This document shows, piece after piece, positions 10,543 through 64,000 of a stretch of 64,000 nucleotides of DNA; the stretch's first letter is position 1, and each line of letters begins with the position of its first letter. Made by a program: the position numbers and the translations under genes. This DNA comes from Membranipora membranacea (Eukaryota; Bryozoa; Gymnolaemata; Cheilostomatida; Membraniporidae): positions 16,860,948 to 16,924,947 of the forward strand of contig OU612071.1 in assembly GCA_914767715.1 (NCBI GenBank). Reading direction: 5' to 3'. The notes under the pieces are model-generated. The model saw nothing but the letters and a program-made list of their open reading frames with translations. It was not told where the DNA came from and ran no database searches.

Positions 10543-10619
10543 GTCGAAGATTCTAAGACACTTTCTCAATTAATGCCATCAATACAACACCAGTAGGTGT
10601 GTAAATCACCATAGGAGTG
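10543..10619 (+). other. 5' UTR end of ARM/FN3 copy A
   Basis: A GTGTTTTACAG acceptor at 10541-10542 starts an exon that has in-frame stops before the ATG at 10620, so it is untranslated leader. The same site is at 59010-59011 in copy B. The first leader exon was not located. Confidence 0.5.
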
Positions 10620-35230: not shown

Positions 35231-35236
35231 TTTATT
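35231..35236 (-). promoter_or_regulatory. Polyadenylation signal of the ROCO-caspase gene
   Basis: AATAAA on the minus strand, about 85 nt after the caspase stop codon; it is the first such hexamer downstream. Confidence 0.55.
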
Positions 35237-35321: not shown

Positions 35322-36435
35322 TCAGTGACAGTTAGGGAAGAGATAGACAGCCCTGTCTCCTGTAAATGTACAGCTGATATCTGGTATCTGTCCCTTTGGT
35401 TTAGTTTTCTCAACACACTTTTCTATACTCTTCAGTTCAACCTGAGCTCGAACCTGGAAACAAGTGAGATAGTTCTTAGTACAGGTGAACGGTTACTAAT
35501 ATGGAAGAACATTCGTTGGTTTGACTGACTGAGGTCACACAAAATTGGCAAAATTGCACTTTTTCTAGATATAGACAGAAACATAAGAGTGAGCCAAATA
35601 GTAGGTTTTTGACTGACTGAGGTCTTGTCTTACGCCAGGTATGATTATAGTTGATCAACTTCTTTGCTTTCAATAACTAATATTAGTGAGAGGTGGGACT
35701 CTGGAACGAGATGAACTTCCTTTGGTGATGCTCAACAGAACAACCACTATTACAGTAAAGTAAAATAAGCCCATACCAAGCTGGACAAACATCATCAAAT
35801 TAACAATTATTGTTACCATCTTTGGTCAGGATGAGCCTTTCAGATAACTTACATTTTCAGCCAGTTGCCTCAGGTCAGCACAATGCCCGTATCTACTGAA
35901 CATAATCACTATAGCTCTGATGAGCCAGGATCCATTTCTGTGATGTCTCATCGATCCAAATTCTAAGAATATTCAGAGAATTTATAAAATACAACATTTA
36001 AATATTAATGAAGACAGATTTGTTACCTTATCTGTATACTTTACTTGCGAAGGTGAAAAATGTTTTAATCTGGCTTGTTTTGTTGAAGGAAGCCAACAAA
36101 TTATGGTTGTCCTAATGATTTCTTCGAAACATATTTACAATCTATAATTGTTGGAATGTATCAGGGTACAATATAATACAATAGCTGACAACAACTTGCA
36201 ACTGATATCAATAACAATTTTACTTCAATTTACTCCTCACCTGGTAGACTTGACTTCAGCACAAGAAAATGTGACCGTCTCAGAGACACGTTTTGATCCT
36301 CAGTTGCATCATAGTTTGGCAAGTTGCCAGCATCCCTGAACTCATTATCAGAGGTGCTCAGCTTTATTGGCTTCTTTGGAATCGCATGTTTCATTCTTGC
36401 CTCACCTCCGGCAGCGGAAATGTTATCCATTAGTC
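35322..36435 (-). CDS. ROCO-caspase B, exons 15-17: caspase small subunit (p10) and stop
   Basis: Exons 36435-36241, 35962-35853 and 35453-35322. Exon 15 encodes an Asp-containing interdomain linker and then HFLVLKSSLP, the family's AYSTxPG-like strand. Exon 16 encodes EFGSMRHHRNGSWLIRA: Arg1542 fits the S1-pocket Arg and GSW is the p10 hallmark. Exon 17 carries the last strands (GQIPDISCTFTGDRAVYLFP) and stops at 35324-35322 (TGA). The protein ends where caspases normally end, so the caspase is the C-terminal module. Confidence 0.92.
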
Positions 36436-39400
36436 CTAAGAGATAATGAACCAAGTGAATGAAAGACCTAGCATATAGGCTGTTGGTACCATCGACTTAA
36501 AGACTTTGTTTTAGGCTGCTCTTTTGTATCACATCTTATTCTCCATATTTTATTCTATCATGTGAGCGATTTTCAGCTTTAGAATCCAAATATTGAGGAA
36601 GTTATGGCCTCTCAAACTTCCAAGGTGACGGCAATTTATCGGCAGTAAAAATGAGCCGGCAATCCCTAGGGTACGTCACAACCTGCTAACCTAGTTGGTC
36701 CAAGTGGCGTGATGGTAGCGTCGTTGCCTATAGCTATGGGGACCCGGGTTCAATTCCCACCCAATTTTGATCATCAATTATTATGTGATTATTAGTGTAT
36801 TAACTAATAACTCATAATGTCTATGTCACATGTCTATGGTTGTGACATACCCCAGGGGAAACATCCGCTTATTCCCAATGCCGATTGAAGGCAATCACCC
36901 TGGAAGTTTGAGAGGCCATAACTTCCTCAATATTAGGATTCTAAAGCTGAAAATTGCTCACATGATAGAGTAAAATATGGAGAATAAGATGTGATACAAA
37001 AGAGCAGCCTCAAACAAAGTCTTTAATAATAAACCTAGAGAGGACACTGTATGGAGCATAAGCAATAAGGCACGTTGTGGGCGACGTAAAGACAATTTTT
37101 GGCGACGTAACGATTTGTGAAAGAGTAGAAGCAATGATGCTATCATTGATTTACTGGCCAAAATCCGGGTTTTGTGTCGATAGCTTGATCAATTTTGATA
37201 GGATTTTGGGTTTGAAAATCACAATAGATTAAGCAGCTCGTCCTAAACAGTTTGATACTAATTTATGGCAAAATATTTTTCAGAAATTTCAAATTCAAAA
37301 TCCGATCATAATTGATCGACTTACGAACAAAGATCCTAGACTATGGAGAGTAACACAACGATAGCATCGATGCTTATACAACTTCCAATGACGTTACTTC
37401 GCCCCACAATTAGGTACCTCGCTTCAGCTGTGTGTAGTGTCCTGTCTAGGTTAATTATTAAGTCTATGGTTTATAGCCGCTTCGCGGAAACAATAATTTA
37501 TCAGACTCATCCTCACCCATCTTGAAATCTTTTCAGTTATATAACTTCGAGTCTATGCCATACAGCATGTAACCAATACTGTTACACATACACACATGTG
37601 ACGGTGAATATGAATCCTGTCAATTCAGATTTCTTCCTAATTCAGAAAGTTGCAAGACTGACTCTAACTAGTAGTAACACAGCTTTTTTATATTTCATCA
37701 AAACTGTCGATGACCTACATGAGTAGTTATAGAATATGGTGAGAGTCAGAGAAAATCAGCAAAATGCATATCAATTGCTGTAAATGCGACTCACTCAGCT
37801 TTTTCAGACACAAACCTTTAGTACACTATCATCAGAAATAAGGGACCAATACCTACCTACCAATAGAGATATAATATCTTACCGTCAGAACATGACTGTA
37901 CAATCACCAGTTTCGGCTTATGAGCCATTGCAGGAAACTTTGTACCACCAAGAAGACCATAAATATCCTGGAGGCGGACACTCCAATCGTCATTACCATG
38001 AATGACACCGTCGGTACCATGTGACATGATGGCCAACACAAACATACCATAAATGTTGTGCTCTGGTCTCTTAGTCTCAGCTATGATGGTATCACAGATG
38101 TCCTAAAGCATACAAATCTTGATATTAGCAAAAGAATGCTGCTACCAACACTTCAACAAATTTTAATTTTAAATAAAAAATATAATAATATGTTAAATCC
38201 TCAACATTCATGTAATCAACAAATTACCTATAATTTACACATATTTATTAGGTCAACCTTGCTAATCTGAAGCAATCAATTCATCATTATTATTGATTGG
38301 TAGAAATGAAATGTGACAGTCATAAGTTTCAAACCATATTACGGATTATATAATCTAAGGTTTCACAGCGTGTTCATAAATGTTTCAAGAAAAGACCTCT
38401 TCTACTGATATTTATTTTTCCCTCACATCTATGTTTAGGATTACTTAGATATCTTCTTACCTTGGCAGTATAATCTTTATGTTCGCCAACCACATCAAAG
38501 TGGAATCTCTCAAACATTATTTTGAGATTATTGAAGTCTTGCTCAGAGCCAGGACGTGGAGAGCTAGAATAAGCATTTGACACTATGAGTACTCTACCTC
38601 TGATTCGTTCACTCATCAGGTACACCTGTGTAAAACGGGAGAAGAATCTGACCTAAATTTTACACAGTAGGCATCCAATACTTCTTCATACTAATAAAGA
38701 CTAAAACGAAGTGATAACAGGCAGTATAGATAGCTCACATTCAACTCATGTCCAATAATTATTATGTATGCGATGCTAGATTCGATAATGATTCCTGTTA
38801 TTCATATATTTTGGATAACACCTTGTCGTCATTAGGAAACAGGTGCTTGATATAATCAGGCGTTGCGTGAGGAACGAGATCGATGTTATCCAAAGCTGTG
38901 TCATCCATTAGAATATCGGGAGTACGGAATGGATCCGAACCATGTCCATCATATCCAGCCTGGTTAGACTGCTGTAACCCCAAATCTGTTGGGACTGCGA
39001 TGAATCCTCCACCTACAAAAATTTATGATATGCATAAATTTCTTAGGAGAAAGCAAATATTTAGATTCTATAAACGGCGTATTTTCGGTTGGACCAAGAT
39101 GTCAGTCGAATGCATAAAATTTAGGTATCTTATAGATGAAATTCACAGCCAATAGCTTTGTGTCTTCACACCGGAATAATCTAGGAGATTACAAACTGGT
39201 ATATAAATACTACCTGCTGTTTCTCCACTCAACAGAGACAAATGAGTTTCTCGGTAGCTTCTCAACTCAACAATTCTCTCAGGGGATAAGTTCTTGCCTG
39301 GAATGAATCAATAAGAGCTCCAATCAAGGAAGAAGAAAGGTTTACAACAAGATTTTCAGTTAGATCAATTTTCGCTTCATTAATCTTCTACAAACACTTT

Positions 39401-42400
39401 GCGCCTACAGATCTAATTTCACTCACATGGTTTCAGAAAAGCTGCTGGAACATCGGCACCTTCTGCAAGACAGTGAATTTCGTCATTCTCGTCGCATTCC
39501 ATCTCATCAGAGAGCATCCATCTTGGGTTGTGAACCATATGAGGTCTCAATTGCTGGGTGAGCAGGCAGCTTCCGCAGCAAAACATGACAGCAGGGTGAG
39601 TGCCTTTCCACGTACTCTTCATGTAGGTAAGAAGGTTTTCTAAGCACATCCTCATCCTCCCCCATGATCGACAGAGGTCATGTACAGAGGTTGACACTTG
39701 AAGAGTGACATTTGCTTCATGGTAGTGGTGAATGAAATGTGTGGTTGATCCTCCATGGAAAATCTTTGCGCCATTCCTGGCCACTGTACATTTGTCATCA
39801 GGACTTCTTGATGAATCAAGTACTACTATGGAAAGCTCATGGTATATGTGATGTGGTAATGGCAGCATGCTCTCAAAACTTATCAAAACTCTCAGTTGAA
39901 ATTCACCGTCAGATTTCCAACTCCTATCGTTGTATTCCGTGGTGAAGTATGGGACAACATAGCATTGCAAACCATCCTGGATCGGCACAATCGGGCCATG
40001 AATCAGCCTAAACTTCTGCAAGATTCCGAGGGCTATATCTATTGGGAATGTTGAGTCTTCACCAATAACATGATTGAGGAGCTCTTCAGAGATCAACCCA
40101 GTTTGCTGGTAATGGAAGACATGATTCTCAAATTCTATCTTTGTTGAAATCAACCTCACAAACGAATTTGGGACATATACATACTCTTGTATGCGTTCTT
40201 CCCATTGCTTTGTGGCATCATGATTGAAGAGTAGAGCTATGAGACTCCTCAATGATATGAAATCATGGAAAATGGGAAACTGAGGGCAGTCTTCCAGCCA
40301 TAATAATCTGCCAGATTTGTGCATTAACCTTAGCACAATTTTCAGTGACGGTATATTTTGCTGATAAAGCGACTCAAGAGACTGAATATCTAGGTACGAG
40401 GCTTCAAATGACTCAATATCAGCAATCATGGCTAACCATAAAGGGGGCAGAAACTTGATGTGACCACAGGAGATCTCATCTATGCACTGAATAATGCCAT
40501 CGAACTGATCAAAGGCTGGATCATCTCCAACCACAAATATATTTGATCGTTGGAAAAGTTGTCTGTTTTCATCAGAGAAAACTCTAATCGCGGGTCCATG
40601 TTTCTCCTCTGCTGTGCGGTCTCTGATAGTAATCCAGGTTTGTCTACGTAGGAGCTCAACTGTGCGAATGAATACTTTCATCTGATAACTTACATCAGTT
40701 TCGGATAGCTTATCTTTGTGGGTTAGCACCAGCAGGGGTGGGCCCAAATCAGGGTTAGCTAGGTAAAAGTGAGCTATCCAGTCAAAGCACAGTTGCTTTA
40801 CCGCTTCACGGGGATCTTGTGTCGCTAATGTTTTGAACTCATGAAGGTTAACTACTATGACTGGAATGAAGTCCGCTTTCAGTGCGATTTGATATGTAGG
40901 GTGGTAGACTCCATTTCCACCTAGATCTATGATGCGTATTTCCTTTACGGAGTCCATTTTAAGCTTCTTATGATTGAACACAGTTGTGGTTTCATCACTT
41001 GGGTCACCTTTCATCCGCTTTGTTAGGTATCGCTTTCCTTTCCTTAGAGACTCTATGACACTTGTTTTACCTGAGTATGACTTTCCGATCACACCTACGG
41101 TTAGGGATGGTAGCTTTTCAAACAATTCAGCTTCACTATCGAGAAAGAATAACTTAATCGCTTGTAATCCCTGCTCAGCGATAGCAGAGGGGGGACAACT
41201 CAAGTTCTCACACCCATCGAGGTTTAGGTGAGTGAGAGCTTGATGTCCGGGAACAGGCAACACCAACCATTCCAGACGCTTATTGTGGGCCAAGTTTATG
41301 CTGGATAAACTATTTTGGGAAAGCCATGACATGGTTGAAAACTCAGTAAAACGATTTCGGTCGAGCATCAGTTCCTTCAGGTTGACAAGCAGTGAAAGCC
41401 TGCAATCAGTGAATATTGAGTCATATTTACCCATTTTAACCATTAACACCATTGCGATATTGTAAATTGTAATTGAGCTTTGAAATTACTTTGCATTCAT
41501 TATAGTAATGTTGAAACAACACACAACCCATTCAATAGCTTTACTCTTGCAATATTTGAGGTTACAGCAATATTAACAAGGAACATTTAAATATTGAAAA
41601 ATGGAACTCCCCTATTCAGGCTTAACAGGCTTCTCTCAACTGAAATCTTTGCGACCAGGGAATAACTAACTTGCAGGCGAGGACCAAACATCAATTAACT
41701 TATTGATTTCTGACATATTCTCAGTGTATAGCTAAAAAACATGGAAAATGATGACTCCAAATTGTTCAGTGATTAAGCAGATTAGGTTTACAAGGTTTTG
41801 CTTGGGATGTCAGTACTATATTTTGAGATGAGGGATCTTTGATATAACTATGAATACATACTGTTGAGGCACTCTAGAAAGCTGATTCCTGCTCAAATCG
41901 ATCGTCTCCAAGTTCTCTAGATTGGTTATTCTATAAAAGATAACAAATACAGTGTAAGCTGGTTAATTAGAATCCTGTTAATTCGAAAATATCTGTTAAT
42001 TCAGACACCTGACTGTGTGTGTGTGTTCGTGTTTGTGCGTGTTAATGCTCAATGAACTACAGTGCACTCCTCTTAATTCAGACTTTATATTTCAGCACTC
42101 AGAGTTCAAACAAAGATAATTGGTCCCTTCAGCTAAATGTGGATTCATTCTTATTTAATTTGATTCAAACTCTGCTTAATTAGGACACAATTTGATGGTC
42201 CCTAGAAATTTGAATTGAGTGGAGTGTACTGTACATAATTATATTTGCAGAATAATTATATCTGCATAAGAAAAATTATATAACATAAAAAATATAGTAT
42301 ATATGCAACATATTATATTTACAGAATAAGAAGAAGGTCAAAGAATGAAGGATGTGGAAGACAAGTTTTGAAGAGAACCTTCTTATGCACCAACCTGTCA

Positions 42401-45400
42401 CTGAATATTTGCAGCTTGTTACCTGCCATTATGAGCGTTCTCAACTGTTTAAGGTCACCAATACTACAACGGCAAGATGTGACAAAATTCACGAAACGAA
42501 GCAACGATAGACAATAGAGAAACATGAGTCAGCTGTTAGTGAAAAATATTTTTATTCTTTACCTTTTCTGATTCATACTAGTTAGTGTAATGCTTGGGTG
42601 TAACTATTTCTATCATTCAATACATGACAAAAGCTCTATTTATTACTGTGTATTGTGTTGGTCATGGATTGTTTGTTCTCGATATAACAGATATTTAGCA
42701 TATGCATTGACAAATCACAAAACACTAGACAGCACACAGTATCACATGAAATTTATGCAGCAAAATCAAGTGATAGAAAACTCAATTGATATTTTGAACA
42801 TGATGTAACTCACAGGTGAAAGTCTAACATTTGGAGAAAACAATGTAGGTCAACAGTTAGCTCCTGTAATTTTTCATTCTTTGAATGATGCATTACTGTT
42901 CAATAAAATGTACATTTTGGGACAAAATGGTTTTTTTTTCCGGTTGAGACTTTAATGATCTTGCCTTGTACATTGGTACAAGGCTTTTCTATTTTGAATT
43001 CACTGTGGTCCAGTAAAGTGAGGGTTGAGTTTCTATTACAATAGGGAGAGTCAAACTTAGGAATTAGGTTTGAAATAATTGGCTGTTCAAAGCGGTATCC
43101 GGACATTTTCCCCAATGTCATTTTCCCACCAAGCCATTTTCTCACATCCCTTTATCCCTTTATCCCACCTAGCCATTTTCCCACCAAGCCATATTCCCAC
43201 CGAGCCATTTTCCCACCAGAACATTTTCCCACATATTCGTTTTTCCACCAATAAGATTTCTCACTGATCCATTTTCTCACCGGGATGTTTTCCCACCGAT
43301 CTGTTTTCCCACCATGATATTTTCCCACCTGGGCGTTTTCTCACCAATCCATTTTTCCACCCTGACATTTTCCCACCCGGACGTTTTCCCACTTGCTATT
43401 TTCCCACTATTGCTTTTTTCAAATGAACACTGGTAGCTTCTTTCTATTTTTTTGTTCCTTTTCCTTCTGCTCTTTTTCAGTCATTAAAAATGTTAATTGA
43501 AATTAGTGCTAGAGTCTGGTCATAAAAGTTTGTTGTTCCTTTTTTATTACAGAATCCTAAAGTCTATGACCGTTGGTGTTAAAAATTTTGGCAAAGGTTA
43601 TGAAATGACTTGAACAGTTTTCTTATGATTTTACAAAACTTCGCTCTTGTACAATTCCTTGTAATAACACATAGTTGTGTTCACCCAAGGAGTTAAAGAC
43701 TCCTCGGTTCACCTAAGTGACTGTTGTCAGATTTCGTTAGTGCTTGACCATTGTTTGCAGATGAATATACAAAGGGTCACTGTTTCTCTTTCAGTATTTC
43801 ATTACCATTTCAGTTTTTGCACTAAATTCCTGCTTGATCCCATCTAGCCATCAGAAATTAAGTCCCTCATCATAAACAGATGTGAGTGCCTTTGTGAATG
43901 ATCATCATTAATTTACACAATTATTTTGGGGGGTTGCTCTTGCGTTGATTCTATATACTTATGTAGTCTATGTTCAATCCAGCACTTTTTATGTTCATTC
44001 CAGGGTTTTCGACTTTCATACCAGTCTACTTTCATTCCAGCTAATTTCAATCCCGTCGGCGTTCATTCCAGCCAACGGTCATTCCAATCCGCTGCGCACA
44101 CCAGCATATGATATGATCAAATTCTAGGGTGCATGACCTGATATTCCGATTTGTATTTTTAATTGATCACAAATAAATTGTTTTGTTTCGCCAATTCTTG
44201 TTTGGAATTGGATGAAAATTTTTAAATTATTGGTTTTCAATCAAATCGCTTTATTCTTCTGAAGAGAAGACTAAATACTATTCTGCGTTTAATCAATATT
44301 AAGTCACTAACAAGGAGTGAGTACGAGCTGAGAGCAGGAAGATCCATAGCGAAATCCTCCGGTAAACCTGGCGAAGTGCACAAGGGCGCCCGGAAAACAG
44401 GGAGCACTGTGCGCATTTGAAACAATTTTAATAGAAATAGATCACATCATTGTTTTTCTTTCTTCCTCTAAAATGTTTCACCTCAGTATTGCAGGTAGTT
44501 GTCCCTTCATTTTACAAGTGGAAACAACTCGAATGTTTCAAACTGTTGATATGGTAAAAGCAGGGAGGGTGGGATATACCTCTCCCACCCTCCCTGGTAA
44601 AAGCAGGAAGGGTCCCTGGTGAAAGCAAATAATTGTAGAAACTTTATTATCCTTCATAGTCATTTCGGAAAGGATCTTGTGCGTAAATATACATAGAGTG
44701 GAAATTTCCTTACATTGTTTGGTGGTTGATTGATAAAAGCTTGTAAAACAGTAAAACAATCTTTACCGAAAGCCATTTGGCGGAAAACGTATGATGTTAG
44801 CTTAATTTTGTAGAGTGATATGGCCAATAACAGTAATATGAAATTCTCTTCAGCTCGGGCAATGATTAAATGGCTCAAAACTTTTGAGAATTGGCATAGG
44901 CACCATCAATTTGTTTTGTCGAAAAAGAAGTTTATAACAAGGAGGCATTTTTGATGACTAACTTGTGCAATAAAAAACTCAAATCAAAATCAACATGTTA
45001 CTTATAAAATCAACTCACAGCTCCATTTCCAAAGCTATAACTTTCTCCAGTGTGGGCTGGATGTGAACATTGTTAACGTATTTGTGAATGTGAACAGCTT
45101 AGCTTGCAAAGAGGCTGCGAAGGAGAAAAATTTGTGTGGTGGGAAAACAGCACTGTGGTAAATTGTCCTGTTGGGAAAATTGTTTGGTGGAAAAATGGCC
45201 TGGTGGGAAAATGGCTTGTTGAGCAAATGTCTGGGTGGAAAAATGGATTGCTGGGAAAACTTCCAGGTGGGAAACTAGATTGGTGGGAAAACGTGCAGGT
45301 GGGAAAATGGCACAGTGGGAAATCAACCAGGTGAGATAATGGCTTGGTGGGAAAATGTCCAGGTGGGAAAACAACAGAGTGGGATAATGGGAGGTGGAAA

Positions 45401-48400
45401 AATGACTTGGTGGGAATATGACATTTGGAAAATGGGGTGGATTGGTTCGTGTTGCTTTGCATAACGCTTGCAAGATTCAATCACTAAGGTCCCATGCTTC
45501 GATTTTGTGGTTCACTCCGATTTCAAATGGTTAGAATCCAGTGGATTCTAACCATTCCCGTGATGGGAAAAACATGAAAAGAAACTGCCGCAGCCAGGAC
45601 TTGAACCCGGCATACCGCGTGTGATCCCTTTGAAGGCAATGGGTGCAAGCGCTAACCATTCAGCCATGCCACCAATTTGGAAATAGGTCGAATAAACACG
45701 GTATGGATATTCGCGTCCAAAAAGTCATTCGTCACAATCGGAATTTGATTTTAAGGCTGTTTCCATGGGGCGATTACTCCCGAAATCCTTACAAAACCGA
45801 CACATGGGAACATAGTGATTGAGTGAGCAGTGAGCTGATCTGACAATCAATTCATTGTTGTGTGCATTCTACAAGAAGATTACATCAGGACTTCATCCTC
45901 TATACCTCTATTATTAATAATCAGTGTAAAATCCCATGCGCAGTAGCTCTCAACTGTGTATGGGATTTTACATTGATTATTAATAATCAATTTTATTACA
46001 GTAGGTAAATTCGGCCCTTGGTATATATATTAAATAATCCTTAATCATAATCATTTTCATGGGGAAATCCAACTGGATAGATTTTATGATTAGGTATATG
46101 GTTTTTCAATGATATTGACATGAAACTTAGAATTATCTCCTCATTGGTAATAGGGAGACAACTTGAATTCAAGTTGGATTCAGTTGGATTTCCCATGAAA
46201 ATGATTATGATTAATGATTATTTAATATAGATACCAAGGGCGCGAATTTACCTATTGGAATAGGTCGGCTTTTGCCTAATAACACCTTGCCTATTACATC
46301 TTTTTCTCCCTATCCCTCTCTGGATCGCAGTTTTTCCATTTCTAGCAGTCATGACCGTGATAATTGGCCATTTATTTTTTTCTTTATTGATGTTTAATGC
46401 CTTACAAACTCTTTTTAATTTGTTGTAATTAAACCGAAATAAAATGTCTTGAAGGGAACAAACCATTTAGTTGTAAATTAAGTTGACGGAGGAAGAATAA
46501 AGATATTACTCATTAATTAAACTCCAATAATAAACAAATGATAGATCAACGATAGGGCATGATGTAACTAGAGTGGATAACATACCAATATCAACATGGA
46601 ATGCTCAGTAACTTAGTATACAGACATGCTCCAACCAATCTTTGGCCTGAATCCTAGACTATATAAATATCTCCCCAGCCTCAGTCATACCATAATGCTC
46701 AATTCTTCGTAAATAAAGTATCTAGAACCCACAGGCAAATTAGTATGTAAACTCACAATTCAGGCACATTGGGTAGCTGATTGTTGGACAGATCCAAGAA
46801 CTCCAACTGCTTCACATCACTCAGTCTTTAAACAGAACATAATACAAATCAAATCAGCGGATGTGAGATTGCTATGGTAAAATTGTGGTATGGCCAAAAT
46901 CTATCATACATCAAAAATTTTGGCTTTTATTTCACCATGAGGCTTAAATGTGAGAGCAACTGTCGCAATCGCACTACCCCTGAATTGATAGCATTCAGAA
47001 GAGAGGTAATGGAATCTAGTTGTTTCCCAAACGTTCAGAATTTGGAGGCTGCCATCTTGCTATGCTATGGTATAACAGGGTATCACAAATGTGTGATACA
47101 TTACTTTCTCCATAACTGTGACCATTGATGCATAAAGATTATAATTATACATACAGACGGCTTGATGAAAATGTCACATACAGGAACTGATACTTAAACT
47201 ACTGCTGCCACTCATGCAAATTTGTGCTCATTGAATTCTGCATAGCTCCAAGATGATTAATTGAGACTTAAATCTCATAATGCTCTCCTAATGGACAAAT
47301 AATTTGCACAAACTGATCTTGAAAATCAGGGCATGAAATCTACGCACCAGTTTATGACGTGTAGTGTGCACTAGTAAGACGGTAACTACGTCACCGGATG
47401 CGGTAGATAATTAATTTCATACCCTAATTTTGACGATCAGTTTGTGCAAATAATTTGCTGATTAGGTGACAATTCTGAGATTGCAGCCTCATTTTATTAG
47501 TTTTGAGCTACACAGAATTCTATAAGCACACATTTGGCTGTGTGGCAGCAGTGGTTTAAGGAACAATTGCACACAGCTGGTATCAACTGCTTCTATTAGA
47601 CCATTTCCTTAAAATGTTCTGAGCATACTAGACTACTTCTGTTTATAATGAAATGATTATGACACCATGGTAGAAAAAGCTTCATAGTTGTATTATTCAC
47701 TTGCCAAATGGACCCTCAAAAACATTCTAAATGCTATTTAGAGTTCAGGAAAAACCGCCTGAAAAGTTGCCACTGCCTTTAATAATCTTTTAAGGGTTAT
47801 GGTGACAAGAGATCAATTCCAGATGTGTATGAAGATGAACACTAAGAGCATGCAATTGAAAGAGTTAACTGCATGGCGGCTGCGGCTCCATACTGAAGCT
47901 GAAAAACTTTCAAATAAAAGATAATTAAAACCTCCCAGTAAATGAATTCACAGTTCGCATAAGTTCTGCTTGAGACTTACCGTGGAGAGATGATTTCAAT
48001 ATTGCAATTCATCAGCTTCAATGTCTGGAGCTGAGGCATTGCAGCAAATATATGACCTTGTCTACAACATATCCAATTACAAGCAAGTAATAACAGTCAC
48101 TGAGTGTTTACCTGATTAGAAATATGAATCGAAACATATTTGATTCAGAGGCAACATGGAGATATTCAGAACATTCAAATTAATGCAACTATGCGTGGTT
48201 GTTGTAGTGATAAATTAAATATATCAATACATATAAAGAGCTCATGGTGGCAGAGGTGGTGTTGGATGCTTGATCCTATAGCTGTACCAAAACACAACAG
48301 ACTCCTGTATCCGAGGACTGATGACAATGATGTACTGGATAAAAGTTATCATCAGTCAAGACTTCATGTTAACCTCCCCGTGGTCAACACTGGTAAATGG

Positions 48401-51400
48401 AGATTTCCAGGCTAACAGCATTGATGATCTGTGTGATGATGACCCAGACAGAAATACATCCAGAGAAGCAACAATCTGCGAGAGCCTGATAGGCTTCAAT
48501 TCCTGTCCCCATACACGGTCATTTATTGCGGCTACTGAACTACTGGGCTAGTCTTGGTCTATCCTTATCAGTGTTAGAGAGGGTTGATTGGCAACTGACA
48601 AAATTTTTGTCAGCAAATCCAAATGAGCCACAAAATTCAGGAAGAAAGGAAAGATATCGCTCTGGATAAAATACTATACCCAACTAAAATTTGTATCCTG
48701 CAACGCTAGAGTTATGCTCGATTGGCAGAATTGAGTGGTAAGATGTAAATGTAGTGAATCTGCAGTGGCTTTGGCCATCAGGAACGAACTTGTAACCAAA
48801 TTGATAAAAGAACCTAAGGCAGTCAGTGACAGCATGATGACGCTTAGTGTAACTACAGGAATGCACCCTGCAGTAGTTATTACATTAAATATTGTGTTGA
48901 TGAGCTATTGAGTGTAATACCAATAGTGTAACAATTTTTCAAGGTAGATAATATTTCTTGGATGATCGAGGGGTAAAGTGTTACCAAACTAATCCCTCTT
49001 CACTAACACTCCTAACTAGAGTATACACTGATATGTATACCAGTGCAAACACTGGTTTATAAACTAGTACTTATTCATGTGTATACAGCAGTGTATACTC
49101 CGCTGTTACATACCTAACCCAAGTCAGTGTTACTGTTACACCAGGGTAGGGTTATTCCAGTCTCCTCTTACATCATGCCTATTATGAATACCTATTTCAT
49201 ACTTACATCTCTGGGGATACTTGATTCTCACAGTGAGACATAACCAACCACGTAATGCTGTGAAAATAACTCAGAATGGCAGCATCCAATCTGTAAGAAA
49301 GATCAGAAGTATTTTCCCAGATTATTGCAAGAATTTTCAATAACTTTGGTGACAAGCAACGATAAAAAATGGAGGAGGGTTGAGATATTGTGTCTCATGC
49401 CCATCCAAGAAACACAGTAAGTCAAAATGCCGAAATCTTGTTCTTGAATTAATAAAAATGATCGAAATGGTTTTCAGCAGCCCATAAAGATGATTGGTGA
49501 TATTAATTACTGAGCTAGTGGTGGAAATTTTGTCACTAACCCTTGGAAAGGATACCAAATATAGCTCAGTAACATTCTGCAGGAGCTCAGCTACCTCTAC
49601 TGGCAATTTGTAAGAGATATATGAGATATTTTCTCAGAGATATGCAGAAATTTGTAAAAGGTTTGGTGACAAGGAATGATATACCATGGAGGAGGGTTGA
49701 GATATTGTGTTTCATCCCCGTCAAAATAAATCAGCCTGTCAATATTTTTTCTGTGGAAATCTGTTCATGAATTGATCAAAACGATTGGTATGGTCTGCAG
49801 CAGCCAATAAATTGATTGGAAATATCGATTATTAAGTGAGTGGTTATAAATTTGCCACTTACCCTTGAAAGGATATCAAGTATAGTTTGGAAACATCCTG
49901 CATGTGTTCAGCCACCTCTACCGGCAAAGTACGACACACTTTCATAATGGTCATGGGGGCTGTGTCTAGCTTATCTATGACATCTTTGAGTGTGTGCTGC
50001 TCCACATCATTATTGATCCATGAAATATCTTGTGCGGAATCTCCTTCCTCCTGGAGCCTAACCCACATCGCTGATGGGCCAAATTCTGATCAGAGTAAAA
50101 AGTGAACATAAAATGCTCGTGCTCAAAGTATTGTTTTATTTTCTATGAGTTAATTTGATAATTTTGGTATTTATTCTGATGTTGAAGAGCAACTGGAAGT
50201 ATGTAGGATGTATAAATTGAACATTGAAAGTTTATTCCGGACTTTTATATACTAGGAACTAATCGTTAATGAGAGCTTGTAAATAAAGTGGTTTGGATTT
50301 GGACACAGATTGGCTAAAATTTAATTTGTGGATATTTGCATTCCTTAGGGTTTTCTCAGCGTAAAGCCACCAAAATAAACCAGGCCAAGTGAATCGGAGT
50401 TTACAATGAATCCACTGCATCCACCCATCTACAACTAACACTTTACTGACTTATGGACCAATAGAGATAGCAATGAATTTGTTTATTATGAGCCGAAATT
50501 ACGGTTATAAATAAGAAAGAGTTCATGACTGCAAGATTAGGCCAACATGTCATATTATTCAAAACTCGCTAAATTATATGTGTTACCTTGAATGAGGGAT
50601 TCGGGCCATTGCTGATTTTGAGCCTCTGATGGCAGACTAGGCAACCAAACGCCAAAGTGAGCCGCAGCAGCCAATCTGTGGAGTGAAGTTACATCGATAC
50701 CATCCTCAGTGTAATATACATGGTCGAAGAACCATTCAATTGTCCTACAGCGATGCGTTGTGAACAAGACCTGAAAAAAGAGTTTCCCTTTAAATTGCAA
50801 TAACTTGACTGTTCAATTAATTTTGTCCCCATTTACTATAACTGTTATAAATTATGGTGTTACATTACCCATTCCTCCCCTCTCAGTATCGTATGATCTG
50901 AATTTTATGTCAATGGCCACATGGCCTAAAACTATTGAGGTGATATTTCACTATCATAGAAAATTGAGGTATAGTGTTTAATTTCAAGTTTTCAACACAT
51001 CAAGAGAATGGAAAGGTCTTAGCAAATAGGTTGATGTATGTATGATAATTACTTGCTGGAACCAAAGGAGCCTTCTAACAGGTCCTCACTAGTAAGATTG
51101 TTACTTCAGATCTTATATTTAGTACAAATTCCATATTCCCTCCAACTTACCGTTCTTGAAGTTCCATTCTGAAAAATATGGGCATTTTCCTCTATGTACT
51201 TCACAGACTGCGCTGAGTTACACACCATGAGTTGTAGGGCCCAGCTGTTATCACCATATGCTCCTTCGATTTCTTTTACAGCACAATCAGCACCATCAGC
51301 TATCCTGCATCGGATCAGTGTGAAGTTGGCGACAATCAGAGCCGAAACAACTGCATCATATTCATACTGTGAGAGTCTATCATCGACGATAAGAATTCCG

Positions 51401-53757
51401 CACAGTTTATGCTTAATGTTTGAAACAGGGGTAGTGTTGAGGCTCGCAAATAGCTTTCTGTTACCTATGCATGCTGAGATCAATTTCAAAATACCACTTT
51501 GAACGATGACATCTCCAGGTCTGCCTACTGATGAAATATAAGTGACTAGATCATAGAATGGTTTATATTCTATCAGGCCTTTCGCATATTCTTGACTGAC
51601 AAGTCCTAACTTGAAGTTGAGATATTGTCTGATCAATGAGTGATTTTCATTCTGTGACATCCATTGCTTCATAACGGCACTTGTTGACTCAATATTATTC
51701 ATGATAGTTAGAGAGCTATCAAGCTCAAACAGATATGCAAACTGCAGAAGCGAGATTGTTCCATGGAAGGACCGGATGAATGGTACTGTCAGCACATCTT
51801 CAAGGAACCTCTCATTACTTAGCAAGTGTCTTTCAAATCGTTCAATGCGTTGTGGCAACATCGTTCTATGTTTGTGTTGACCGATCTCTGCAATTAATGA
51901 CTGAAAATTAAATACAATAATTTTCTTTGTGAAATCATTCAATGAAAATTATAAGGCGATGTGGACAATGAAATAAAAAGGGAAATATTGATATCTATCA
52001 AATAGGCATTCAAAGAATTCGAAAATTCCTTGTAGCCAGCATACTGTCATTGCCACATGAGGCCCGGCAGCGGCATTGGTTACCTGTTAGCTGGGGAAAC
52101 CCTTGATAAATATGGCTATATATACTGTGTGGGGCCGAGGTGATTATTTTGCAGAATTTGTTGAGTTCATCACAAAGCGGGTGCTGTACATTAAAATATA
52201 ATTGTAGTTATTTTTTTTATCACTCCAGTACATCTACACCAGATGATAGGAACAAAGATATAGCCCTCTCACATTGCAGACAAGCAGATAACTGTCAAAA
52301 GCACTACCAGCAACTGGAGCAAGTGTAATCAAAGACCATGCTTTCACTTCTTGTGTGAGGGGAGTACGAGGTGGCTCAGATGGTTAGAGCGCCGGTCATC
52401 AGTGATCAAGTGTTGAAATTTAGTGACCAAATACATGAGAATTTTCTAAAATTTGGTCAACAAAACAAGCATAAATGATTTGGGTATTTGGAAGCTTATT
52501 TAAACCAAATATCAAAATCATTCCCCTGTGCAAACGCTGGATCAATGCGGAATTTGATGATTATCAAATTGCACCCATCTCAGCTCGGTTATGGCTATGC
52601 TGCGCATGCTGAAGGCATCCCAAATGTAGAGAGGGCAACTCTTAATATAGGATCAAATTTCGTTCAGAAAGATGTCTGTACATACCCTCAAAACCTATCA
52701 GCAGGTCAGTAAATGTGCGGTAAAAGTTTCTTCGCATGACTAAAATTGAAAAGAAAGAGAATATTAAAAAGCAAACTACGTATGTGCAGCTGTCTAAGCT
52801 CGGATTGGCACAAATTTTAAAAGAGGGAGACATACATTTCGGTAACTACTTTATCGTTTAGAGAAAAATTTAAAACAGGGATGCCTACAATACAGACCAC
52901 TCATCAAGCCTCTACTGAGATCAGCGCAAAATTTAATTTATCAAATAGCGTTCAGGAGACTAAATTGTAAAGCTTTTTCCCGCAAACTGCATCTTGATCA
53001 ATAATTCAGGTTGTTCGCATACCTCTTAATCGATTATCATCGTCATCATCATCCCAGCTGACAAGAAGACTGTCCCGTAGAACCGTCTCCATGAAAAACC
53101 AGTCTACGCACAAAAACAGACATACTGCTCCATCTGTAAGGACTAGCTCTGATATCAGCTGCCTGTTGTCTATTACCGTTGATATATCTGGTTCCGTAGA
53201 GAGATCAATATGATCATGGAGATAGGCAAGTCCGACTCCCGTTTCATCTACAAAAACATCAATTTTATTTTTAAGGTTATGTAGTCTTTAGGCATTTATG
53301 AAAATAAAATCAGTTGCTACAACACATGTGAGTCACAGTCCCTGTTTTGTCTTGAAGGTGGTGAGGCTGCGTTGACAGAGATCCATTTTTTTTGCATTTG
53401 GGAGTTCAAACAGTGCAGTTTAATATAAATCTTCTGCATCGCGGAAACTTTTCTTCTATATTTTGATAAATTAAAAGAGATCATATTGAGGGATTAAAGA
53501 TTGTTCTAAATGTGACATTCATACATTGACTACACATTGTTTAAGCTTTCTATCTTAGCTTTTATAAATGGTGTTTGTGAATTTTGTGTCACTATAGAGC
53601 GGAAATAAAAATGTTGGTGTTAAAATTACATACACCCTCTACAGATTTCCGTCTTCAGTTCTCCAATAGTAGATACTGGTGACATCTGTAGATTACAGAC
53701 AGTGCTGCGGATACGACTCTTTACACATACTGGTATCAGCACACCCTCTTCTGCCAT
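35322..53757 (-). CDS. LRR-ROCO-caspase fusion protein, copy B, complete, 17 coding exons
   Basis: Predicted cytosolic multidomain protein of 1616 aa. Exons: 53757-53634, 53247-53023, 51887-51151, 50770-50587, 50085-49863, 48061-47981, 46825-46757, 42463-42395, 41930-41862, 41399-39427, 39297-39214, 39012-38822, 38625-38461, 38102-37883, 36435-36241, 35962-35853, 35453-35322. All junctions are GT-AG and all phases agree (4851 nt, divisible by three). Domains: N-terminal region 1-116, helical region about 117-510, LRRs about 500-660, Roc GTPase about 690-880, COR about 890-1240, linker 1252-1343, caspase 1344-1616. Roc proteins are GTP-controlled switches, and caspases cleave after Asp using a His/Cys pair; both pairs of key residues are visible. 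Inference: a sensor whose GTPase state controls a covalently linked protease. The weakest points are the first two exons and the poor donor (GTGTTA) after 38822. Alternative: two neighbouring genes, which phase continuity argues against. Confidence 0.85.
36497..37025. mobile_element. Foldback element with ~135-bp arms around a tRNA-like core
   Basis: The left arm (36497-~36635, starting TTAAAGACTTTG) is the near reverse complement of the right arm (~36890-37025). The centre (36695-36765) has an A box (TGGCGTGATGGTAGCG) and a B box (GGGTTCAATTCCC). It lies in the ROCO-caspase intron before exon 15, between the halves of the protease. Confidence 0.75.
37024..37460. mobile_element. Second inverted-repeat element abutting the first
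   Basis: The ends TAATAATAAACCTAGAGAGG and CCTGTCTAGGTTAATTATTA are inverted copies, and inner segments (around 37190 and 37310) also pair imperfectly. It lies in the same caspase intron. Confidence 0.55.
37883..38625 (-). CDS. ROCO-caspase B, exons 13-14: caspase large subunit (p20)
   Basis: Exon 13 (38625-38461) and exon 14 (38102-37883) encode p20. Exon 13 holds RGRVLIVSNAY and SPRPGSEQD, in which Arg1367 matches the substrate-pocket Arg of the SxRxGTDxD motif. Exon 14 holds SHGTDG with catalytic His1426 and QSCSDG with catalytic Cys1469, where most caspases have QACRG or QACQG. All residues needed for catalysis are present. The S1 pocket Arg is supplied by the small-subunit exon at 35853-35962. 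Confidence 0.93.
38822..39012 (-). CDS. ROCO-caspase B, exon 12: linker into caspase
   Basis: A 191-nt exon rich in Gly, Asp and Pro, likely disordered, ending PNDDK. It contains many Asp residues (ILMDDTALDNIDL) that could be processing sites for release of the protease; this is inference. The donor AAG|GTGTTA is weak, but the next exon continues with VYLMSERIRGRVLIV, the expected start of a caspase p20 (K-V-Y-x-M-x-x-x-x-R-G). Confidence 0.65.
39214..39297 (-). CDS. ROCO-caspase B, exon 11: linker
   Basis: An 84-nt exon between CATTCCAG and GCAG|GTAGTA, phase 1-1. It encodes a helical linker containing LSPERIVELRSYRETHLS. There are no death-domain or CARD features; it connects COR to the caspase. 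Confidence 0.7.
39427..41399 (-). CDS. ROCO-caspase B, exon 10: last LRRs, Roc GTPase and COR domain
   Basis: One long exon covers residues 594-1251. Two or three LRRs come first (LSSINLAHNK, LTHLNLDGC). Roc follows: P-loop GKSYSGKTS at 699-707, a Thr-rich switch I near 729-734, DLGG at 752-755, and THKD at 820-823 in place of NKxD, as is usual in Roc domains. COR begins near LPPLWLAMIADIES (about 890) and ends with a Cys-rich tail (CCGSC, then PRWMLSDEMEC), similar to the tail seen in MFHAS1-like ROCO proteins. GTP-binding motifs look intact, so activity is expected. The acceptor is GATTGCAG and the donor CAT|GTGAGT. Confidence 0.93.
41862..41930 (-). CDS. ROCO-caspase B, exon 9: leucine-rich repeat
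   Basis: A 69-nt, phase 2-2 exon with acceptor TTTATAG and donor CA|GTATGT. It encodes ITNLENLETIDLSRNQLSRV, one LRR. It joins exon 10, which starts with a further repeat (LVNLKELMLDRNRF). Confidence 0.8.
42395..42463 (-). CDS. ROCO-caspase B, exon 8: leucine-rich repeat
   Basis: A 69-nt, phase 2-2 exon with acceptor TTGTAG and donor CAG|GTTGGT. It encodes IGDLKQLRTLIMAGNKLQIF, one LRR with the conserved Asn. The intron before it is 4.3 kb and full of repeats. Confidence 0.75.
43119..43405. repeat. Degenerate minisatellite, CATTTTCCCACC type
   Basis: Roughly 15 imperfect units of about 18-20 bp sharing CATTTTCCCACC. It is the reverse complement of the array at 45130-45425. It lies in the 4.3-kb intron between LRR exons 7 and 8. 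Confidence 0.85.
43950..44095. repeat. Degenerate repeat, GTTCATTCCAG type
   Basis: About seven imperfect copies of a phrase like TTCATTCCAG, spaced about 18 bp. It sits between the two inverted minisatellites. Confidence 0.6.
45130..45425. repeat. Degenerate minisatellite, GGTGGGAAAATGG type
   Basis: Imperfect units of about 18-20 bp sharing GGTGGGAAAATG, i.e. the opposite strand of the 43119-43405 array. The two form an inverted pair about 1.7 kb apart. ORFs across it are repeat artefacts. Confidence 0.85.
45587..45672 (-). mobile_element. tRNA-like SINE head
   Basis: On the minus strand: GGCATGGCTGAATGGTTAGC (A box) and CCGGGTTCAAGTCC (B box), 40-50 nt apart with a longish insert like a class II tRNA. 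The flanks do not pair as an acceptor stem. Confidence 0.55.
45915..45992. repeat. Stem-loop, ~28-bp arms
   Basis: ATTATTAATAATCAGTG...AAAATCCCAT pairs with ATGGGATTTTAC...ATTATTAATAAT around a loop of about 24 nt. It lies just left of the MITE-like element at 46005. Confidence 0.7.
46005..46258. mobile_element. MITE-like element with ~75-bp inverted ends
   Basis: The ends share TAGGTAAATTCG and CCCTTGGTAT, then a long nearly identical stretch ending GGGAAATCCAACTG, in inverted orientation. The inner part is unique. No transposase ORF. Confidence 0.75.
46757..46825 (-). CDS. ROCO-caspase B, exon 7: leucine-rich repeat
   Basis: A 69-nt exon, exactly one 23-residue repeat, phase 2 at both ends (TTTAAAG acceptor, TT|GTGAGT donor). 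It encodes LSDVKQLEFLDLSNNQLPN, a textbook LxxLxLxxNxL repeat. Confidence 0.8.
47190..47575. mobile_element. Foldback MITE, family member 1
   Basis: Inverted halves: CTGCTGCCAC, GCACAAATTTG-type and CAAATAATTTGCACAAACTGATC on the left match CAGTTTGTGCAAATAATTTG and TGTGGCAGCAG on the right. A related copy is at about 20500-20815. Confidence 0.65.
47981..48061 (-). CDS. ROCO-caspase B, exon 6: first leucine-rich repeat
   Basis: An 81-nt exon, phase 2 at both ends, with acceptor TTGTAG and donor CG|GTAAGT. It encodes MPQLQTLKLMNCNIEIISP, a standard LxxLxLxxCxI leucine-rich repeat. It is the only LRR exon also present in copy A inside the window (19-99). Confidence 0.75.
49549..49613 (-). pseudogene. 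Degraded duplicate of the 3' half of ROCO-caspase exon 5, copy B
   Basis: Encodes LPVEVAELLQNVTELYLVS, matching LPVEVAEHMQDVSKLYLIS of exon 5. Flanking intron sequence (GGTGACAAG..., GGAGGAGGGTTGAGATATTG) is also duplicated about 330 bp apart, so a segment of exon plus intron was copied. The first half is missing and the donor is GTTAGT. The copy-A counterpart is near 1262-1341 with a GC donor. Confidence 0.5.
49863..50085 (-). CDS. ROCO-caspase B, exon 5
   Basis: The exon runs from a CTGATCAG acceptor (phase 1) to a CAAGG|GTAAGT donor (phase 2). It is helical and acidic, containing VEQHTLKDVIDKLDT, and ends LPVEVAEHMQDVSKLYLIS, an amphipathic segment leading into the first LRR exon. A degraded copy of this 3' half lies downstream at 49549-49613. 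Copy A is the same length (1867-2089) with about 11 residue changes. Confidence 0.7.
50587..50770 (-). CDS. ROCO-caspase B, exon 4
   Basis: The exon gives 61 residues between a TTTTTTCAG acceptor (phase 0) and a CAAG|GTAACA donor (phase 1). It includes CRTIEWFFDHVYYTEDG and a Pro-rich PSLPSEAQ segment. No family is recognised. Copy A (2556-2724) is 15 nt shorter near the 3' end, still in frame, and shows about 13 substitutions in 56 aligned residues. Confidence 0.7.
51151..51887 (-). CDS. ROCO-caspase B, exon 3: N-terminal helical domain
   Basis: The largest N-terminal exon gives 245 residues, from an AATTGCAG acceptor (phase 1) to an ACG|GTAAGT donor (phase 0). The open frame extends 5' to 51942, but a better-phased start is the acceptor at 51888. 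The residues are mainly amphipathic helix, with Leu/Ile repeats such as LLQFAYLFELDSSLT and ILKLISACIGN, suggesting a HEAT/ARM-like solenoid; no named family is recognised. Its counterpart in copy A differs at roughly 40-45 residues, far more than the introns around it differ. This makes it a good candidate for a ligand- or partner-contacting region. Confidence 0.75.
52366..52413 (+). mobile_element. Truncated SINE head (A box only), copy B
   Basis: Counterpart of the relic at 5053-5100, with GTGGCTCAGATGGTTAGAGC. It lies in the ROCO-caspase intron between exons 2 and 3. Confidence 0.5.
53023..53247 (-). CDS. ROCO-caspase B, exon 2
   Basis: The exon has 75 codons between a TTTTTGTAG acceptor and a GAG|GTATGC donor, phase 1 on both sides. 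It may complete a ubiquitin-like N-terminal domain. Near its end lies an acidic run of six Asp residues (DDDDDD). Copy A keeps an open frame here but lacks 12 nt directly after the acceptor and most of the Asp run. Confidence 0.6.
53634..53757 (-). CDS. ROCO-caspase B, exon 1 (start codon)
   Basis: The ATG is at 53757-53755 and the frame begins MAEEGVLIPVCVKSRIRS. The exon gives 41 residues and ends in phase 1 before a GTATGT donor. The frame is also open in copy A at 6276-6399 with about three residue changes, which supports it as coding. The VCVKSRIR start followed by STIGELK resembles the first two strands and helix of a ubiquitin-like fold. That is only an impression, and this start is the least certain part of the model. 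Confidence 0.6.
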
Positions 53758-56700
53758 TCTGAACTTTCACTCAATGCTACAAAATAAACAATGCCAGCAC
53801 CTTACAGATACAAAGGGTCTGATAAGAGCCACTAATAATTCAGGATAAAAGACAACAAAAGTAAATGAAAATTGATTCAACGGTCACCAGCCTGCCTTGC
53901 CCTTGTGAAGTAAGATGTAAAGAAATTTTACCGGCTTAATTAAAAGATACGACGATACGTGTCCAGATGTGGTTCATTCTTCGGAGGTGAGTGAATGTAC
54001 TGCTGGTATTGGTTGGGGTTTGGTGTTCTGCCTCATATTCAAATTCTGCCTAAAATACAACAGTGATAAGGAGCATGAGAATATTGGCCCGGTATAGGAT
54101 CATATAGGCATATAGGACTTTCAAATACGGGCTAGACATAATGCATAGAGTCCTGAGTCGTTAGGTAAGCACCCTAGTACAACACACTTACAAAGTAACC
54201 AATACAACCATAGACAACCATAGACCACCATAGACAACCATAGACAATTGTCTATGAATACAATCGACAAACTAGTTATGTTCATTGGGCAACAAACAAA
54301 GGAATGTCTCAATATGATCAGAAAATTATATTGTTTTATATTGTTTAGGAGTTGCCTGACCTTGTCTGTGGAGCAGACAACTCCAGAAAGGTGACGGTTG
54401 TCACGTTGAGTCATAGCTGGGAGTTTGGGACCCAAACTCCCTGGTCATAGCAAAAGGACCACTTAGTTTGATAACCAATGCAAAACCAATGTAAAGCATT
54501 GAAACTTAAATCCCTCTGGATTTCATTTTGGACCAACGTTATGTAAAATTCGAGGCTCAACTCATTGCCAGTAGTGTGTAATTATATCGTGTACTGCAGG
54601 CTTGATATCTGATTCTGCCTGGATTGATATATTGTATTTTTTGTACATTGTCTACCTGTATATCCTCTGAGTTACGCTGGTGAGGAACCTCAACACTTTG
54701 ACTTGTCCTTTACTCCTCTGACAAGGGGTCTATTAGTCTCTGTGAGTATGAATTGGAGTAATTAGGAAGATCTAACCATTTGCATCTTCTGGGATCTAAA
54801 GAATTACAAATGAATAGACTGTCATATTGAATGTCAACTGTTGATGCTTGCCAGAGACAGTATAAAGTGCATCACCTACAATAGCACACCAAAATTATGG
54901 GGAAGAGAGGGGGGGGTCATTGTCATTGCACGATGAAGTTGATGGAGATGGACAATGCTGTTGACTTTGCTTAATTAATTTATATAAACTGCTAAGACAA
55001 CATGGTTGTTAAAGAAACACATTGTAGGGCCTAACCAGAGGATCCAAGACACAGATTCCAATCTTAAACCGTGATCTCAGAACACGTAATTGAATATATA
55101 TCTAAGCAATTCTCATACTTTTGGGGGACGAAAATCCAGGCCTATGACCTAGTTGTCTCAAAAGCCTTGGCCCAAGGTTATGAATCCCATTTCAAACCTT
55201 GAAATATCTCAGTACTGAAGTTTGCTTGGAAGTCAAGTGCCAAGGTGGTCCAGGCCTCTCAACAACAGATAATCATGGAACTGATCACTGATTTCAGAAA
55301 GCTATTCATTTTCTTACAATAAAAGGCATGATTGTAGCACTGCACTGATATTCTGCACGGATTATAGGTTATAAATCAGTTCCGAAAATACAACATGACC
55401 AGTCATTAGCCATGCTGAATGAAGGCTAGCAAGGGCATCCACTTCGGATTAGAAGACAGTGACTGCTTTTTGATGGCCAAACACATGGCACGCAAGCTGT
55501 CTTGGGATGTGAGGCTGTCCTGATAAAAGCGGTGTCAACTGATTGAATACCAAAGCGAACTTGAAGCGGGAAAAGCCTAAAACTAGTATCAATGCATATA
55601 TTTGTGTCAACAATAACGTTTGGTCCATGTCCTTGATCATGGATAGAACCAGCCTGTCTTGACAAGCTTGCTGGTGGGGTAGGGAGAAAAAGCTTGTCGC
55701 CTCTTGCATCGAACTGTCAAGAAGAGATTCGTGTGATCCTCTATTCAACCCTTATATAAATTGGATCTCCAGCTGTGACTTAAAGGAACCTATTCATTCA
55801 TTGTCCGTTGATCACAAACGTAAACTAATTTTGACAGCTATGTAAACACTAGGGGATCAATTGTTTGTTCCCCTCTGTGGTGTTGGAGGAATATCGCGCG
55901 ATTGTCAGGTATTGAGGCGGCAAGCTACCCAACATCACAAATCACCTCTCCGTCACCACGGGGAAAACAACATTTTCTTAGATCATTGGTATGTGCATAG
56001 GTCACACGCTTGTTTGTAACTCCAGATGCCCACTATCTGTGGAGTAGTCAGTCTAGCTAACTACACACATCATATCTGGAGCACTACACTGAGTACAACC
56101 TAAAGTATACCTGCCTCTAGATACTACTCAGACTGTTTGAGTACTATTAAGTGCTGCGCTAACCTCTTGGGTAGGTACTACGCCATCAATATCTGGGAAG
56201 AATCCTCTGATTGTAACCTTTCATGGTAAGTGAACTACTAAATACTGCTAATAGTTTATCCTAAGTTAAACTGTTCATGGCTGCCCATCCTGGTTCAGTA
56301 GGAACTCTTGGGATCATTACACTATCTTTTGAATTGAATAGCTTAACTATAAACAAGCCTCCCCAGCCCAACCAAGCCAGCCAGGCAGTTTTTAGACGCT
56401 GTATCATCCAAATGGATTGAGTGAGTACTTTAAACAACACGGCATACATGGCTTGGTGGTCTGAGGATAGGCTAAAAAATGTGGCATATGATGAGGCGGT
56501 CACCCCTTCCCATAGAAGAAAATTACAATGGTCATGACAGGCTCAGTTTCATTTCTCTTCTCTGCATTCTTCATTATTATAATATCCCATCCTCATCATC
56601 ACACATTACAAACCTGTACTCCTCTCATAGGCCATATACAAACGTTGTCAGATCTTCAGACTGTGTGCTGGCTGGTCTGGTCCTTATTTGACACCAGCAG

Positions 56701-63836: not shown

Positions 63837-64000
63837 GTATGTATTACTTTAATTTCGAATCCAATCATATTTATTGTTCAATTTAATTTAAACACTCTAA
63901 CCTAACAGATCCCTCCTCGCTTATCAACTTGATTGCCACGTGCTCATTTTCAAATTTCTTGAAGTTCTCAAGCCATGGAACCACTGGCTGAGGCTATCAT

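Follow-up and report, generated by a model that had tools for sequence, protein, structure and literature searches.

Animals usually keep sensor, switch and caspase as separate proteins that are linked by adaptors. A gene of the cheilostome bryozoan Membranipora membranacea raises the question of whether one chain can carry all three. The gene lies in a 64,000-nucleotide stretch of chromosome 7 (C7:16860948-16924947), which is called the window here, and a first-pass annotation had assigned leucine-rich repeats (LRRs), a Roc-COR GTPase and a complete caspase to its product. In this study, we found that this single-chain LRR-Roc-COR-caspase architecture is strongly supported by sequence comparison, as it recurs in five copies of one array, in dozens of pairs across the genome and in two proteins of a second bryozoan, Watersipora subatra. 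The reading that we favour, with moderate confidence, is that the gene belongs to a bryozoan-expanded family of intracellular one-chain receptor-proteases, in which the state of Roc-COR would control caspase proximity without death-fold adaptors.

Domain order of the window gene

The gene is on the minus strand and runs from an ATG at 53757 to a stop codon at 35322, both as annotated before. Conceptual splicing of 19 exons gave a protein of 1662 amino acids with no internal stops, and all 18 introns were GT-AG. The earlier model of 17 exons and 1616 amino acids was right in joining one consistent chain but not in its counts. Its direct join from 39427 to 38625 is not expected in the full-length form, because two exons (39297-39214 and 39012-38822) intervene. 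From the N-terminus to the C-terminus, the protein has a region without a known family, LRRs, Roc, a putative and diverged COR, a linker and a caspase. The LRRs, the P-loop GKSYSGKTS and the motifs DLGG, THKD, SHG and QSC that had been listed are all present in a single frame.

In a Pfam search, Peptidase_C14 (PF00656), the caspase family named in the first-pass annotation, matched residues 1398-1650 well above its cut-off (E = 7.2e-34; 117.9 bits against 21.4) and was covered over nearly its full length (profile positions 1-229 of 233). The caspase part also aligned with caspase-9, caspase-3 and CED-3 when phmmer was run against the PDB. In the alignments to caspase-3 and caspase-9, a His (MSHG), a Cys (QSC) and two S1 arginines were in register; we take the His and Cys to be catalytic and the arginines to belong to the P1-Asp pocket. 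Exon 15 (38461-38625) starts the large subunit and encodes S1 Arg1413 (38556-38554), and exon 16 (37883-38102) encodes His1472 (38021-38019) and Cys1515 (37892-37890). The inter-subunit linker and the start of the small subunit are in exon 17 (36241-36435). Exon 18 (35853-35962) continues the small subunit with S1 Arg1588 (35948-35946), and exon 19 (35322-35453) ends the caspase with the stop codon. An AATAAA on the same strand (35231-35236) lies 3' of the stop. The caspase had been called complete, and the profile coverage and key residues agree with this; the pentapeptide, however, is QSCSD rather than QACxG.

The Roc domain (40454-41104; residues 739-955, borders approximate) has its P-loop at 41086-41060. 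Judged by its P-loop, DxGG and THKD motifs, it can be assigned to the Roco G domains. A profile of the Roc-COR region matched Roco chains including CtRoco and LRRK1/LRRK2, and the predicted Roc fold resembled the Roc of LRRK2/LRRK1 among other GTPases in Foldseek; for one model, the top rows were mostly RhoA/Cdc42-type GTPases, with LRRK1 at rank 4. The Pfam Roc match on the window protein was weak (E = 0.02, below the cut-off). Exon 12 (39427-41399), which holds the final LRRs, Roc and COR together, had the relatives P0001 (40% identity, 98% cover) and P0002 (30% identity, 95% cover). The COR region (39428-40453; residues 956-1297, borders approximate) was assigned via relatives. At E up to 1, COR-A was matched in four of five aligned members (best 3.3e-7) and COR-B in three of five (best 0.011), correctly placed directly after Roc. 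The annotated COR domain is therefore seen in the relatives, but not as a Pfam match on the window protein itself. A COR-only profile run against the PDB reached CtRoco at E = 0.79, and unrelated chains scored at least as well. Structure predictions were built on three and five sequences, and only their Roc part was usable.

LRR matches were obtained with Pfam over the whole protein (LRR_8, E = 2.6e-14, best stretch 553-611; LRR_14, 521-716). The N-terminal residues, about 540 in number, had no significant match in Pfam or in phmmer against the PDB. Residues 117-544 matched nothing in the PDB up to E = 10, while in Pfam they matched only DUF7833 (E = 0.21, below its cut-off). A ubiquitin-like N-terminus was considered and dropped, as neither Pfam up to E = 10 nor phmmer against the PDB gave such a match. 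Pfam matched no CARD, DED, death domain, NACHT, NB-ARC or kinase in the 1662 amino acids, and no CARD or DED up to E = 10 in the linker before the caspase. Having neither CARD nor DED, the protein does not appear to be a classical initiator caspase with a death-fold prodomain. It does not appear to be an NLR/STAND receptor either, since its predicted switch is a Roc GTPase, with no NACHT or NB-ARC.

Recurrence in the array, the genome and a second species

Five copies of the gene lie between C7:16796975 and 17038734 in the order E, B, A, C, D, where A is the window gene. The Roc-COR exon is followed by the caspase exons in 5/5 copies. All five likewise retain the P-loop, DLGG, THKD, SHG, the catalytic Cys and both S1 arginines. 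In the comparison of exon order, rows of less than 60% identity were dropped, and exons 1-5 of copy C do not appear. Part of the array is a tandem duplication within the window, where 1-15422 duplicates 47963-64000 with 84-96% identity in long blocks; this uneven identity suggests gene conversion or unequal block age. Exons 1-8 of copy B are at 19-6399 on the minus strand, and its exons 9-19 are to the left of the window. The mapped splice dinucleotides of copy B are conserved and its exon length changes are all multiples of three, which is not expected by chance. The acceptor of its exon 2 was unmappable owing to a deletion, and the in-frame AG at 5907 was taken.

Spliced models were made for A, B and C only. 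The translation of copy B (1643 amino acids) and that of exons 12-19 of copy C (1020 amino acids) have no internal stop, and exon 12 is open in D and E. A pseudogene was rejected on these grounds, with the whole frames of A and B, exons 12-19 of C and exon 12 of D and E being open. Over the compared codons, pairwise dN/dS was 0.63 for A-B, 0.53 for A-C and 0.50 for B-C. These ratios and the regional ones given below come from small counts without a significance test, and for B-C the region borders are misplaced by as many as three codons; the values are consistent with moderate constraint. The N-terminal part, compared for A-B only, had a dN/dS of 0.71. Positive selection on the N-terminus was rejected, because dS was also high and identity is uneven along the duplication, so gene conversion explains the divergence equally well.

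Pairing of the two parts was then measured across the M. membranacea genome. Two queries gave 67 and 64 Roc-COR matches, which merged into 82 places, and two others gave 145 and 150 caspase matches, which merged into 190 exon-level places. A same-strand caspase place was found within 3 kb downstream of 60 of the 82 Roc-COR places and within 12 kb of 62, against 0 upstream and 0 on the opposite strand. When loci were moved by 50 kb to 2 Mb along their own contig in 1000 shifts, the mean was 0.36 and the maximum 3, against the 60 observed. With the first queries alone (the caspase profile and the window Roc-COR exon), 45 of 67 places were paired within 12 kb, and the control had a mean of 1.02 and a maximum of 5. 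The counts are lower bounds, as the searches scored the best 140 of 515, 67 of 237, 150 of 207 and 64 of 265 candidates. Matching was done exon by exon, so one gene may yield several caspase places, and 190 is not a number of genes. Pairing was judged by distance and strand rather than from annotated genes, and one caspase query and one Roc-COR query came from the window gene, which biases the result toward its relatives.

Four Roc-COR matches lay within very long open frames of 1634-2462 amino acids. Of the 190 caspase places, at least 130 had not been assigned to any Roc-COR place within 3 kb. Caspase clusters were seen on C1, C3, C5, C8, C9, C10 and C11, including those at C1:33.2-36.7 Mb and C5:4.1-7.6 Mb.

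A query with the COR-caspase part retrieved two NCBI proteins of the cheilostome W. subatra, both named 'uncharacterized protein'. P0003 has 1176 amino acids (query cover 94%, identity 31%), with LRRs and a caspase above the Pfam cut-offs and weak Roc and COR matches between them. In P0004, with 917 amino acids (query cover 79%, identity 29%), Roc and COR-A match weakly and a caspase is present, but the model lacks most of its small subunit. The two genes are carried by contigs that differ in length. A homology search with residues 640-1662 gave no matches among 5373 candidates; this result is untrustworthy, since P0003 fell within the allowed length range and was missed. Pattern scans of viral contigs (37 matches) and genome contigs (34 matches) had no relative among their matches.

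The window gene is known here by conceptual splicing of genomic sequence, and its caspase part could begin at a Met in exon 15. It could be argued from this that two adjacent genes, one for LRR-Roc-COR and one for a caspase, were joined by the model and are fused only by read-through. However, frame-compatible junctions are kept in copies B and C, and no AATAAA or ATTAAA was found between exon 12 and exon 15. Both parts are also joined in the two Watersipora proteins, from genes on different contigs, and order and strand are fixed in 60 of the 82 genome pairs. We regard two separate genes as very improbable. An artefact of assembly or gene model was rejected in view of the five copies and the second species; a gene-model artefact in particular appears unlikely given the 5/5 array copies, the two Watersipora proteins and the 60/82 genome pairs.

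Exons and repeats of the window

The remaining exons of the window gene encode the N-terminal region, the LRRs and the linker. Exon 1 (53634-53757) holds the start codon and has the donor GTATGT; it is kept in copy B (6399-6276). Together with exon 2 (53023-53247), exon 3 (52686-52739), exon 4 (51151-51887) and exon 5 (50587-50770), it encodes the N-terminal region, and no known family was seen in exons 1, 2 and 4. Of all junctions in the model, that of exons 3 and 4 is the least secure. An alternative start of exon 4 at 51900 is stronger by eye, yet it is out of phase with exon 3. Exon 6 (49863-50085) runs from the N-terminal region into the LRRs. Exon 7 (49207-49290) is LRR-like, and exon 8 (47981-48061) encodes LRR sequence. 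Three further LRR exons have 69 nt each, namely exon 9 (46757-46825), exon 10 (42395-42463) and exon 11 (41862-41930). After exon 12, the linker is encoded by exon 13 (39214-39297) and by exon 14 (38822-39012), which is acidic and Asp-rich.

The end of exon 6 (LPVEVAELLQNVTELYLVSF) is repeated at 49547-49606, between exons 6 and 7, and similar extra matches are present in copies D and E (C7:17034454 and C7:16807815); it is possible that the repeat is an alternative exon. Two related minisatellite-like stretches in opposite orientation (43104-43420 and 45139-45434) lie in the large intron that separates exons 9 and 10. Elsewhere in the window, nearly identical plus-strand open reading frames of 127 amino acids at 13896-14279 and 62466-62849 were duplicated with the segment. 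An internally repeated stretch at 30065-30752 contains an open frame with a high content of Gly, Lys and Arg, and an open frame of repeated GLTAGAYSW-like units at 23495-23827 is probably a satellite. Scans of the window with Rfam at gathering scores and for tRNAs gave no match.

A proposed receptor-protease and its relatives

Initiator caspases activate by proximity. The bacterial Roco protein CtRoco is reported to be mainly monomeric with GTP and dimeric when nucleotide-free, a change that passes between its LRR, Roc and COR parts (PMC6337361). Taken together, nucleotide-dependent dimerisation and proximity activation make a one-chain receptor the simplest inference for the window protein. 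We infer, as was suggested before, that GTPase switching or COR dimerisation could bring caspases together and bypass adaptors. In the proposed mechanism, the LRR and N-terminal part would read a ligand or stress signal, and Roc-COR would respond by changing both its nucleotide state and its balance of monomer and dimer. Once paired, the COR domains would set two caspase domains side by side for proximity activation. The caspases would cut themselves free in the Asp-rich linker, whose sequence may offer self-release sites, and would then cleave targets, leading to inflammation-like signalling or cell death. By analogy with CtRoco, which is dimeric when nucleotide-free and mainly monomeric with GTP, the direction may be opposite to a simple GTP-on model.

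Adaptor domains were also sought in the genome. Profiles matched 9 CARD and 12 Death domains, beside the 190 caspase places, and on the contigs compared none of these came closer than 600 kb to a Roc-COR place; these counts can miss intron-split or diverged domains. Such scarce and distant matches would fit adaptor-free activation, but they are not proof of it.

The Asp-rich linker between COR and caspase, which the window gene and Watersipora share, could be read in another way. The caspase might cut its own or sister chains chiefly to switch off or release the Roco part, with the GTPase module as the effector. The S1 arginines, however, are conserved as in trans-acting caspases. In addition, an effector on a Roco switch is a known layout, as in ROCO-TIR and ROCO-kinase proteins (PMC9334734, PMC5094078, PMC6337361). 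A GTPase effector is therefore judged quite improbable.

A pseudoprotease has to be weighed for the window copy, in which the caspase would serve only signalling or scaffolding, for instance as a decoy or by regulating those copies that are active. Three of the five array copies (A, D and E) have QSCSD as their pentapeptide, and the linker appears freer to differ in one comparison, with a dN/dS of 1.36 for A-B (0.28 for A-C and 0.65 for B-C). The other copies have QSCSG (B) and QACSG (C), and both P0003 and P0004 of Watersipora have QACSG, the former counting against this explanation. The catalytic His and Cys and both S1 arginines conserved in 5/5 copies also speak against it, as does the dN/dS of the caspase part, which was the lowest of the regions for A-B (0.42) and the second lowest for A-C (0.35) and B-C (0.48). 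We consider a pseudoprotease rather unlikely.

With the receptor-protease reading retained, the expansion of the family in arrays would make an immune role the likeliest use. In bryozoans, feeding bodies (polypides) are regularly broken down and built anew, and nothing in this analysis links the gene to microbes. Both points would suit a family that serves a developmental or regenerative programme, such as cyclic polypide breakdown, instead of immunity. On the other hand, arguing by analogy, tens of dispersed and clustered loci would resemble receptors of changing ligands more than a fixed developmental programme, and the N-terminus, with the A-B ratio given above, diverges more between copies than most other parts, as might be expected of such receptors. 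A developmental role is accordingly somewhat unlikely in our estimate.

Several observations weigh against the receptor-protease reading. Neither COR-A nor COR-B profiles of Pfam match the window copy, the COR matches of the relatives are below the Pfam cut-offs, and two structure models had mean pLDDT values of 47 and 42 in the COR region, which is low confidence. With its QSCSD, protease activity of the window copy is uncertain, and the altered pentapeptide may weaken it. The dN/dS values are only moderately below 1, and that of the A-B linker exceeds 1. Poly(A)-signal hexamers are present in introns 15-17 and in exon 17, and shorter forms with a cut caspase are possible. The gene model itself is conceptual, as stated above. 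For 20 of the 82 Roc-COR places, the 12-kb range contained no caspase match; 18 of these places are on C3 (14.2-28.1 Mb) and the others at C1:30534579 and C11:2957876. A different partner may occur there, or a caspase that has diverged or was not scored, and the caspase is perhaps not the sole partner of Roc-COR. Finally, the one observation that suggests an immune role is the expansion of the family.

A wider proposal is put forward tentatively, and we give it somewhat less than even weight. Cheilostomes would have built a large private repertoire of one-protein LRR-Roc-COR-caspase inflammasomes, which in this genome would number about 60 or more Roc-COR/caspase loci. In these, the GTPase state would gate the caspase without CARD or DED adaptors, and the N-terminal and LRR parts would diversify by tandem duplication for recognition of pathogens or in colony fusion. 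If true, this would be a direct single-molecule link from a Roco GTPase, of the LRRK2 family, to proteolysis, with caspase activity as a possible readout of the GTP state. It would also mean that a receptor able to activate caspases can be made in animals without death-fold adaptors and can grow into a family of tens of genes, with implications for the origins of inflammasomes and for the defence of colonial invertebrates.

No description of a Roco-caspase was recognised among the papers listed by searches of an open-access library; subscription papers and preprint servers were outside the search. Up to forty ROCO domain combinations are reported for animals, and a caspase combination may be drawn among them in a figure (PMC11378527). 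Rocos with kinase, death, CARD and TIR domains have already been published, as have those of brown algae with a different peptidase (PMC6337361, PMC11378527, PMC9334734, PMC5094078). The novelty is thus a new effector, the caspase, on a known Roco switch. The family size and the adaptor-free layout would surprise specialists.

In its proposed working, the window protein would resemble the apoptosome and inflammasome (Apaf-1/CED-4, NLRs), where an NTPase switch and a repeat sensor govern caspase proximity. Those systems join several proteins via death-fold domains, whereas the window protein would collapse them into one chain that uses no death-fold adaptor and has a Roc GTPase where they have the STAND NTPase. 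Group 1 Roco proteins (CtRoco, MFHAS1) also have LRRs directly before Roc and, as is predicted for the window protein, COR after it, and CtRoco was matched by profile; the window protein differs by the caspase after COR and by its long N-terminal region without known relatives. LRRK1 and LRRK2 share the predicted LRR-Roc-COR core followed by an enzyme, and their Roc matches by profile and fold. In the window protein, however, a protease takes the place of the kinase, and Pfam found no WD40, ankyrin or armadillo repeats. ROCO-TIR of sea anemones (NG1) and Aplysia, ROCO-CARD/death of Trichoplax and brown algal ROCO with a C-terminal IPR009003 peptidase likewise place a Roco switch and an immunity, death or peptidase module in one chain (PMC5094078, PMC9334734, PMC11378527). 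The accessible parts of these sources name no ROCO-caspase, and the window protein differs in that its effector is a C14 caspase and its family is numerous in one genome. In bacterial STAND and AP-GTPase conflict systems with caspase-like domains, NTPase switches and caspase-like peptidases occur in one network and sometimes in one chain, but with prokaryotic caspase-like families and other partners, and descent is not claimed (PMC7159879, PMC8195603).
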